The notes below the pieces were generated by a model. It saw only the letters and a program-made list of their open reading frames with translations, was not told where the DNA came from and did no database searches. Made by a program: the position numbers and the translations under genes. From Leptolyngbya sp. NIES-2104 (GTDB lineage Bacteria > Cyanobacteriota > Cyanobacteriia > Leptolyngbyales > Leptolyngbyaceae): a stretch of 64,000 bases of DNA. Shown here piece by piece: positions 52,789-55,240 of this stretch. Numbering within the stretch: position 1 is the stretch's first letter; every line of letters starts with the position of its first letter. Location: the NCBI RefSeq assembly GCF_001485215.1, contig NZ_BBWW01000001.1:2046001-2110000 (forward strand), written 5' to 3'.

Positions 52789-53211
52789 TTATTGAAGGTT
52801 GAGAAACCCTAATAATTCAAACAAACGATCTGGGTCGGTCAGGTAGAGATAACCAATGAGAGCTTCTAGGCTGGTGGCGTTTTGGTAAATTTCGGGGTCA
52901 AGTCGTTTTGGGCGATTCACGGCAGCATTTCGACCACGTTTAACGAACTCATGTTCAGACTCGCTTAGATGGGGCATGAGCGATCGTAAATGGGATGCCT
53001 GAGTTTCTGCCCTCACTTGTGACACAACTTGTTGATGATAAATCTCAGACCGCTTGGGTGGCAAGAGACAACGCCGTCGAATATACAGTTCGTAAACTGC
53101 ATCCCCTAAATAGGCGAGTGCAGCCGGAGAAAGCCGCTGGATCTCAGACGAGGAAGGTACAGGCAAAGCCGTAGATATGTCCAAAATCCCTAGCTCATTC
53201 GATGAGATCAC
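52789..53211 (-). CDS. mrnC: Mini-ribonuclease III
   Basis: RNase III catalytic domain without dsRNA-binding domain: LSPAALAYLGDAVYELYIRRRCLLP (acidic signature), VSQVRAETQASHLRSLMPHLSESEHEFVKRGRNA and NATSLEALIGYLYLTDPDRLFELLGFL. It matures 23S rRNA. The GTG at 53211 (MISSNELGILD) preceded by GGAGA at good spacing is chosen; TTG 53232 is the longer alternative. It precedes rlmB by 79 bp. Confidence 0.92.
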   Translation of the reverse strand: MISSNELGILDISTALPVPSSSEIQRLSPAALAYLGDAVYELYIRRRCLLPPKRSEIYHQQVVSQVRAETQASHLRSLMPHLSESEHEFVKRGRNAAVNRPKRLDPEIYQNATSLEALIGYLYLTDPDRLFELLGFLNLQ

Positions 53212-53323
53212 ATTTTCTCCAACTCCGCACAATGTTCAAAGCTTATTTATCCTAGCAGACCACGAAAAAACCGACTATCCGTCGGACAGGACAGCGGTTT
53301 CTTCCTGATTGAATTCGACTTAA

Positions 53324-53532
53324 GAGGGTGTTTGAAAAGTATAAATAGTTCCTTCGCTCCGTTGCGCTCCCGCCCTGAAATGAATTTCGGGCTAATGAGC
53401 GGAAAGTCTACTTCAGTAGACTAAGAGCAAGTTTCAGGTTCTTAGTCCATTTTTAATGGACTTGCGCCGATTAGCCCGAAATTCTATTTCAGGGCGGGAC
53501 CCTGCAATGAACGACACTTTTCAAACATCCTC
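53324..53532 (+). mobile_element. MITE-like element, family A, copy 2 (209 bp)
   Basis: Ends GAGGGTGTTTGAAAAGT (53324) and ACTTTTCAAACATCCTC (to 53532). The inner CCCTGAAATGAATTTCGGGCTAAT pairs with ATTAGCCCGAAATTCTATTTCAGGG, with hairpins AGTCTACTTCAGTAGACT and AGTCCATT…AATGGACT. Flanked by TTAA/TAA. The right end supplies the TAG stop of the STAS gene. It separates STAS from mrnC, all minus strand. Confidence 0.88.
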
Positions 53533-53903
53533 TAAGCAGATTGAACGTTCTCGATCGCTTGATCCACCGACGGTTGCAGCGCTAAGAATTGCTCTAAGCG
53601 AACGAGCTTTACCGTCTGGGTTACACGAGCGTTCGTCACAATCTGGAGTGTCCCTTCGGCTTGCTGCGCTTTTTTGGCAACTTGTACCAATGCGCCCAAG
53701 CCAGAACTGTCCACAAAATCGATTTTAGACAGATCTAAAATGACGTGTTTAGGACCATCCTCAACACATTTCGTCAGCACCTTCCGAAAGGTCGGTTCCG
53801 AAAAGGCATCGAGTTGCCCTACGAGGCGAAAGAGTTGGTATGTGTTGTCCCTAACTTCGCGTGTGCCTCGAAGACTGACTGTTAGGGTTAGTTGCTCAGG
53901 AAT
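53532..53903 (-). CDS. STAS-domain anti-sigma factor antagonist, probable ATT start
   Basis: The open frame reads back from the stop at 53532 to a TAG at about 53918 with no ATG, and the only GTG/TTG (GTG 53780) would cut the STAS fold in half. The family-like N-terminus PEQLTLTVSLRGTREVRDNTYQLFRLVGQLDAFSEPTFRKVL begins right after ATT at 53903, itself preceded by AGGAGG with good spacing. So translation probably starts at ATT (as in infC). The core follows: HVILDLSKIDFVDSSGLGALVQVAKKAQ, with Ser of DSSG the phosphosite. An anti-sigma partner is not nearby. Confidence 0.8.
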   Translation of the reverse strand: MPEQLTLTVSLRGTREVRDNTYQLFRLVGQLDAFSEPTFRKVLTKCVEDGPKHVILDLSKIDFVDSSGLGALVQVAKKAQQAEGTLQIVTNARVTQTVKLVRLEQFLALQPSVDQAIENVQSA

Positions 53904-53975
53904 AGCCCCCTCCTACCGCGTTGAAATCTAGTTTTTAATTCGACGCTCCAGTATACACCGCTGCAGCCAGATTTG

Positions 53976-55109
53976 CTATTTTTTGTTTTCGCGCATGGAT
54001 TTGACGAAATTCTCGAATAGATAATCGGCATCGTGGGGTCCTGGACTCGCTTCTGGATGATACTGCACCGAGAACATGGGAAGCGTTTTGTGGCGCAATC
54101 CGGCAACGGTGCGATCGTTCAAATTCAAGTGAGTGATCTCAACGGTAGCATCTGGCAGAGAATCCGCATCGATCGCAAATCCGTGATTTTGACTGGTAAT
54201 TTCAATCTGTTGCGTCAAACCACAGGGCTGATTCAATCCGCGATGTCCGAATTTCAACTTAAACGTTTCCGCGCCCAGAGATAAGCCGAGAATCTGATGT
54301 CCCATACAGATACCAAATACAGGCTTTTCAGCTTGTAAGAGTGCTTTCGTAGTTTCGATGCCCTCAGTCACTGCGGCAGGATCTCCCGGACCGTTTGAGA
54401 GAAAAATGCCATCCGGATTGTGTTTGAGAATTTCTTCAGGCGGCGTATTCACCGGAACAACGACCACCCGACAGCCGTAACTTGCCAATCGACGTAGAAT
54501 ATTGCGCTTGATGCCAAAATCGATCGCGACGACCGTAAACTGCTCACCTTCGGTTGGATTCGCGCTAAATTCCCAAATCGTCTCGGTTTTTTCTGACCAT
54601 TCGTAAGTTTTCGTTGTGCTGACTTCTTGCACCAGGTTCAATCCCGCCATACTCGGAGCGCTTTGAACTTGTTCGAGCAGTTCAGCCGGATCGAGAATCT
54701 CAGTCGAAATACCGCCGTTCATCGCACCGATCGATCGCAGTTTTCGCGTTAAGGCACGAGTATCAATCCCGTAAATTCCTAAAAGATTGTGACGTTTTAG
54801 ATAATCCGGGAGCGATTCAGTCGATCGCCAATTGCTCGGACGTTCACAAATATTTCGCGCAATCACACCCCGGACGTGTGGCGCGTCCGATTCTTCGTCA
54901 TCCGAATTCACGCCTGTATTTCCCAGTTCGGGGTAAGTAAATGTCACAATCTGACCCCGATAGCTCGGATCGGTCATGACTTCTTGATAACCCGTCATTC
55001 CGGTATTAAACACGACTTCTCCGATCGTGGTTCCCGTCGCACCAAACGAATAACCACAATAAGTTGTGCCATCAGCCAGCACAAGTAAGGCAGGTTGAGC
55101 AGAGGACAT
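53976..55109 (-). CDS. carA: Carbamoyl-phosphate synthase small subunit
   Basis: Glutaminase subunit feeding ammonia to CarB for arginine and pyrimidine synthesis. N-domain: [18 protein letters not shown]…[35 protein letters not shown]-domain with catalytic Cys in [16 protein letters not shown] and the HPE pair in [20 protein letters not shown]. Start [12 protein letters not shown] (55109) is preferred over 55121. 378 aa is typical. STAS gene lies downstream on the same strand. Confidence 0.97.
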
Positions 55110-55240
55110 AAACAAGAGCAACTACAAAGATCTCATCATTATTATCACGTCCGTTGCGAGTTGCAAGTGCTCTCTAAGCTTTTGAACAGAATTTGGGGGA
55201 ACTCTAACAGGGTCGGGATGTACCCTTGGAAGTTGGGATT

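Follow-up and report, generated by a model that had tools for sequence, protein, structure and literature searches.

An apparent AUU-class start codon conserved in the cyanobacterial orthologues of the anti-sigma factor antagonist Ssr1600

Where does translation begin when the conserved N-terminus of a protein is encoded upstream of every ATG, GTG and TTG in its frame and, if the codon used is ATT, why would such a start be kept? These questions are raised by a STAS-domain gene of Leptolyngbya sp. NIES-2104, located in a 64,000-nucleotide stretch of DNA that was analysed as a whole and is referred to here as the window. The host genome measures 6.39 Mb and its relatives are cyanobacteria.

The locus and its product

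The features relevant to the start codon, all on the minus strand, are as follows.

53532..53903, minus strand: STAS-domain anti-sigma factor antagonist, orthologue of Ssr1600, 123 aa counted from ATT (open reading frame and domain matches)
53901..53903, minus strand: ATT, very probable initiation codon (AT(T/C/A) in 255 of 259 orthologues)
53909..53914, minus strand: Shine-Dalgarno sequence (SD) AGGAGG, with a spacing of 5 nt to ATT (sequence; kept in orthologues)
53913..53915, minus strand: in-frame TAG, 9 nt upstream of ATT and overlapping the SD, which closes the STAS frame
53532..53534, minus strand: TAG, stop codon of the STAS gene (sequence)
53950..53955, minus strand: TATACT, -10-like box of the promoter presumed to serve the STAS gene (sequence; TAYAMT enriched in orthologues)
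53976..55121, minus strand: carA, carbamoyl-phosphate synthase small subunit, upstream neighbour and control (domain match)
52789..53232, minus strand: RNase III-domain (mini-III-like) gene, downstream neighbour (domain match)
53323..53533, minus strand: MITE-like inverted-repeat element, adjoining the stop codon of the STAS gene (repeat comparison)

A preliminary description of this DNA held that the frame is bounded by TAG, that the conserved N-terminus precedes every canonical start codon and that AGGAGG is well placed before ATT. The frame bears out this geometry. Only the codons GAG GGG GCT separate the TAG at 53915-53913 from the ATT at 53903, the SD at 53914-53909 lies 5 nt ahead of it, and the first in-frame ATG, GTG or TTG is GTG 53780, codon 42 counted from ATT, which opens a frame of 82 aa. 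AGGAGG occurs three times in the 64-kb window, both strands counted. Among 40 mechanically called open reading frames of at least 200 aa, some of them possibly spurious, none has GGAGG before a candidate start within its first 40 codons.

Neighbouring and related genes start conventionally. The control gene carA has a canonical start in all 58 readable loci (52 ATG, 6 TTG; 81 tried), and neither GGAG nor GAGG appears within 20 nt 5' of that start in any of the 58. A canonical start is also available in all five STAS paralogues found in the window genome. At C1:1669183-1671239 of this genome, a span of about 2 kb contains two STAS paralogues together with a small HATPase_c_2 kinase, perhaps as a local icfG-type partner-switching cluster. 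The MITE-like element, about 210 bp long, starts at the STAS stop codon and has terminal arms AGAGGGTGTTTGAAAAGT. Among 200 first-look candidates, it was found at 40 places in the genome at 84-100% identity, the copy beside the STAS gene included.

The earlier assignment of the product as an anti-sigma factor antagonist holds. The window protein scores above cut-off for both Pfam STAS (PF01740; 68.4 bits against 22.6) and the anti-sigma factor antagonist family TIGR00377 (64.8 bits against 53.45), and it matches Ssr1600 residue for residue. In an AlphaFold2 model (mean pLDDT 92.5), residues 11-18 and 22-31 form strands and residues 36-49 form helix 1. A start at GTG 53780 was ruled out because both of these modelled first strands precede codon 42 and would be lost. 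The DSSGLG phosphoacceptor motif occupies residues 65-70, with D65, S66, S67 and G68 invariant across 25 aligned proteins; residues 8-13 are also invariant in this alignment, and residues 1, 3 and 7 nearly so. Small HATPase_c_2 proteins are encoded in the window genome. The best-scoring solved relative by sequence is SpoIIAA of Bacillus (1auz, E 4e-8), which has the STAS fold and the DSSGLG motif in common with the window protein; to our knowledge, a rare start codon is not among the known controls of spoIIAA.

Ssr1600 is the anti-SigC antagonist of Synechocystis PCC 6803. The anti-sigma kinase Slr1861 binds and phosphorylates it, with S59 and S60 as the prone sites, and cells that overexpress it grow more slowly in high CO2 (Kurkela et al. 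2025, PMC12329169). The constructs in that study use TTG as the initiation codon, and neither 'AUU' nor 'start codon' occurs in the accessible main text (PMC12329169). By sequence, the window protein is an orthologue of Ssr1600: 19 of the 20 named interface and mutation residues are kept, with one inserted residue in the window protein. In four genomes of one genus group, apparently Synechocystis, the published numbering fits at an offset of 6 from ATT (19-20 of 20 residues), so residue 1 of the published Ssr1600 corresponds to codon 7 counted from ATT. Of the four genomes, two have TTG at this codon and the remaining two CTG or CTA; the SD is about 23 nt away from it. The published start is the TTG at codon 7, whereas the window gene very probably starts at ATT. 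From this comparison, we infer that the published start is too late and that the published protein is short of six N-terminal residues.

Conservation and rate of change of the start codon

Whether relatives conserve ATT at this site was a check that the preliminary description proposed, and the outcome sustains its view of ATT as the sole reasonable start. In 259 orthologues, the homologous codon is ATT in 206, ATC in 25, ATA in 24, ATG in three and CTG in one, with no GTG and no TTG. As read from sequence rather than from peptides, the start therefore lies outside ATG, GTG and TTG in 256 of the 259. The AT(T/C/A) class is present in each of the 43 families represented among 178 family-coded rows. 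Its carriers include deep lineages: ATT is found in two genomes that we take to be Gloeobacter violaceus and G. kilaueensis, and in a third (L212) that is presumably Synechococcus JA-2-3B'a. As the codon recurs in independent genomes, a sequencing error at ATT was ruled out.

The 259 orthologues comprise the window gene, 80 contigs (the best 80 of 320 relatives), 149 genes from a phylum search and 29 from further genomes. Of the 386 genomes covered by the phylum search, 185 gave a match, always a single one at E<=1e-20; 150 of these were listed and read (the window and the 149 others), leaving 35. Among the matches listed, all fall within the window's class. Among the genomes listed, the sole member of this class without a STAS orthologue is G105, which is rated 99% complete and yielded none at E 1e-10 either. 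The first sets overlap slightly, so that 230 rows reduce to 219 distinct genes once identical ones are dropped for the tree; the 29 further genomes are counted in the tally and absent from the tree. The start was read at the fixed homologous codon in all but four of the 230 rows (L063, L172, L184 and L191). In these, small insertions shift the start, and the near-cognate codon at an SD spacing of 5, always ATT, was taken.

Several properties of these genes locate the start at this codon. An upstream in-frame stop with no intervening ATG, GTG or TTG is found in 160 of 230 orthologues, and the stop lies no more than 12 nt 5' of the start in 65 of 230. In 81 of 230, the window gene included, codons 2-20 additionally contain no canonical codon. 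Where such a codon does occur in codons 2-20 (118 of 230), it has no fixed position; the commonest columns are TTG at codon 7 (28 of 219), GTG at codon 9 (57 of 219) and TTG at codon 11 (30 of 219). At residue 2, 204 of 219 orthologues have Ala, Pro, Ser or Thr, which fits removal of Met after a start at ATT. Taken together, there is little doubt that translation of the STAS antagonist starts at ATT.

The surrounding signals are also conserved. A GGAGG-containing SD at a spacing of 5 is present in 188 of 230 orthologues. Between -110 and -14, 175 of 216 orthologues contain TAYAMT, where shuffling predicts 41; the box is commonest at -46/-45 and -39/-38 and lies mostly at -38 to -53, and from this position near the start the STAS leader should be short. 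Strong leader structure was considered and rejected, since 80 leaders sampled from the 219 are not above shuffled sequence (mean MFE -13.4 against -16.1).

A few lineages depart from the pattern. Two Chamaesiphon genomes (L033, L036) and a third of the same clade (L034) have ATG at the homologous codon and no SD, and two other Chamaesiphon genomes of this clade (L027, L061) have ATC with AAGGAGG retained. These five form one clade (support 0.999), in which the ATG rows are not a separate group, and each genome has one STAS orthologue at E 1e-10. As the ATG cases are confined to this clade, the gain of ATG together with loss of the SD looks like a natural compensation that arose in one event or few. 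Family f19, of picoplankton type with small genomes, and presumably including Prochlorococcus MED4 (L233), carries ATC in 14, ATA in five and ATT in three of the 22 genes read. Its SDs are varied in strength, with spacings of 2-12, and an in-frame ATG, GTG or TTG lies upstream in 11 of the 22, so that f19 by itself would leave the start in doubt. The single CTG (L211; genome G151, family f13) has AAGGAGG 5 nt upstream, and its start is ambiguous because an in-frame ATG lies 30 nt upstream of the CTG.

The pace at which the codon changes was estimated on a tree of the 219 genes, built from this one short gene with the start codon excluded, with changes counted by parsimony. The third base of the start shows 13-14 changes, one of them to G, and the first and second bases show 1 and 0. 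By comparison, fourteen fourfold sites in the gene changed 44-75 times each, with 12.7 changes to G per site, and the third base of an invariant internal Ile codon changed 55 times. Given 13 third-base changes against 55 at the internal Ile, these comparisons argue that the start codon is constrained and does not behave as an ordinary Ile codon. A single change to G is far too few against the silent-site rate (P ~4e-5) and marginal against the start site's own slow rate (P ~0.057); because of the latter value, specific selection against AUG is proposed less firmly.

Constraint extends beyond the codon itself. Changes per base number 50-71 at -34..-15 and 4-15 over the SD (-11..-6), while -2, -1 and the third base of codon 2 show 17, 19 and 15, nearly as few as the third base of the start. 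Pyrimidines occupy -2 and -1 in 216 and 215 of 219 orthologues, and codon 2 has T at its third position in 178 of 219. A U at -1 may pair with A37 of the initiator tRNA. Because the whole initiation region changes slowly, this T included, the constraint may not act on start strength alone.

Alternative readings of the ATT codon

Some readings place the start elsewhere. One assigns it to a downstream canonical codon, for example GTG at codon 9 or the TTG at codon 7 that serves as initiation codon in the Ssr1600 constructs (PMC12329169), and a protein shortened in this way could fold, as the first long strand of the model begins at residue 11. However, these columns are not conserved (TTG in only 28 of 219, GTG in 57 of 219), and both were rejected as starts. 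Codon 7 is also some 23 nt away from the SD, the 25 aligned proteins do not vary at residues 8-13 and hardly at residues 1, 3 and 7, and the 81 of 230 genes without a canonical codon either upstream or in codons 2-20 include that of the window, all of which makes a downstream start very improbable. It is scarcely credible that ATT encodes an internal Ile, with ribosomes arriving from an upstream frame by frameshifting or by reading through a stop. Ile codons do occupy the site in 255 of 259 orthologues, and SD-like sequence can promote frameshifting. Yet there is no conserved upstream frame, with 50-71 changes per site at -34..-15, and on this ground an upstream open reading frame, frameshift or read-through was rejected. 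Moreover, ATG and CTG are found at the site too, a genuine Ile codon shows 55 third-base changes where this one shows 13, and there is room for only a short leader downstream of a -10-like box that mostly lies at -38 to -53.

Other readings accept ATT as the true start and differ over why it persists. The conserved codon could be part of a site for a small RNA, an RNA-binding protein or a special initiation mode, with IF3 and start strength incidental. The span of conservation, from about -11 to +12 and including the pyrimidines at -2 and -1 and the T of codon 2, would agree with such a site. This is nevertheless unlikely, as SD, start and coding sequence account for most of the strongly conserved block, the leader is no more structured than shuffled sequence (-13.4 against -16.1, 80 sampled), and the third base of the start codon moves between T, C and A, having changed to G once. 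Alternatively, ATT may be merely tolerated, with a strong SD sufficing and the codon persisting by inertia without benefit. In the accessible part of their study, Belinky et al. (PMC5622118) describe selection toward AUG, SD compensation for GUG and UUG starts, and 2 start switches to AUU. Inertia would be in keeping with the stronger SDs that accompany GUG and UUG starts elsewhere (PMC5622118), and with the one clade that carries ATG and still has the gene. It accords poorly with the contrast between 13 changes at the start, a single one to G, and the 44-75 seen at silent sites, and with the general finding that prokaryotic starts switch to AUG more often than they abandon it (PMC5622118); we give it a slim chance.

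A weak start in a sigma-factor switch

The reading preferred here, in which the AUU start is kept weak by selection with IF3 as the agent, is probably correct, if some way from assured. AUU would be read by initiator Met-tRNA, directed there by the perfect SD hexamer 5 nt upstream, on an mRNA with a short leader from its own presumed promoter. The weak class of codons (AUU, AUC and AUA), apparently held across the class, the deepest lineages sampled included, would limit synthesis of the antagonist and leave it scarce relative to the anti-sigma kinase (Slr1861 in Synechocystis), so that SigC would not be released needlessly. The strong SD would offset the weak codon and allow adequate protein to be made. 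IF3, which rejects initiation complexes on codons other than AUG, GUG and UUG, is the probable agent. The preliminary description had likewise linked rare AUU starts to initiation-factor-dependent control, a sound suggestion given that this class of codons is subject to IF3 and that sigR offers an experimentally tested precedent. The sequences show where the start lies, that it and the SD are conserved across the class, that the codon changes slowly and that the SD is missing where the codon is AUG; the low synthesis rate, the role of IF3 and stoichiometry as the selective reason are what we infer. By analogy with known systems, pairing AUU with a strong SD should keep the antagonist less abundant than its kinase.

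The closest such system is sigR of Streptomyces, which has a GTC start and a AGGAGGTG site and is repressed by IF3 (Feeney et al. 2017, PMC5472188). When sigR is given a canonical start, SigR exceeds its anti-sigma factor and the switch is broken (PMC5472188). Both genes belong to sigma-factor switches in which the product ratio matters, and both combine a start outside ATG, GTG and TTG with an extended AGGAGG-type SD. They differ in that sigR encodes a sigma factor and the STAS gene an anti-sigma antagonist, and in codon class (GTC/GTT against AUU/AUC/AUA). Their distributions also differ: the GTC/GTT start is reported from 34 Streptomyces species, with no evidence for it in other actinobacterial genera in the accessible part of that paper (PMC5472188), whereas the AT(T/C/A) start is found in all 43 cyanobacterial families coded. 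Finally, IF3 repression was demonstrated for sigR, whereas for the STAS gene it is a proposal.

The classical IF3-controlled start is that of infC itself, which is AUU in E. coli and ATC in Streptomyces (PMC5472188). This codon class is shared with the STAS gene, but IF3 autoregulates its own gene, whereas the STAS gene encodes a signalling protein. No AUU-start signature was found in infC of 31 cyanobacterial loci (the window genome's own and 30 others): a canonical start is available in all 31, preceded by GGAGG in three, and shared AUU autocontrol of cyanobacterial infC was rejected on that basis. One may speculate that, with a canonical infC start, cyanobacterial IF3 lacks the classical buffering by an AUU loop, which would leave room for signalling. 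Two IF3_N matches are present in 15 of 59 genomes searched (G060, G170, G027, G390 and G398 among them), the second usually more divergent (E ~1e-22 to 2e-26); the window genome has one. Should start-codon discrimination by a second IF3 differ, this would bear on the AUU finding.

A more dynamic version of the IF3 reading can be envisaged. If free IF3 per 30S subunit fell, or if fidelity changed, initiation at AUU would rise and more antagonist would be made, releasing SigC and restraining growth. An IF3-gated translational input of this kind, older than the crown cyanobacteria and feeding the sigma network through which growth is adjusted to light and inorganic carbon, is a tentative and rather doubtful proposal. 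If true, a single conserved codon would let the cell sense its translation-initiation capacity and relay it to RNA polymerase.

No report of an AUU start for ssr1600 or the STAS gene was found in the literature covered, which takes in few of the subscription journals. As far as their accessible parts go, a study of non-AUG starts in chloroplasts (PMC9845219) has no bearing on the STAS gene, and neither does a comment on Synechocystis proteogenomics (PMC13339759), in which ssr1600 is absent. A weak start in a sigma-factor switch is of a kind known from sigR; the class-wide conservation, the codon class and the role in an antagonist appear to be new.

In summary, starts outside AUG, GUG and UUG have been thought of as rare oddities, and here one apparently persists in nearly all cyanobacteria examined, within a regulator that couples growth to carbon supply. 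The near-universal use of AUU, AUC or AUA suggests that evolution maintains a weak start deliberately. Start-codon annotation can conceal such control, as the published start in Synechocystis, apparently six codons late, illustrates. The locus would also offer a direct, single-codon test of whether the fidelity of translation initiation controls a sigma-factor switch.
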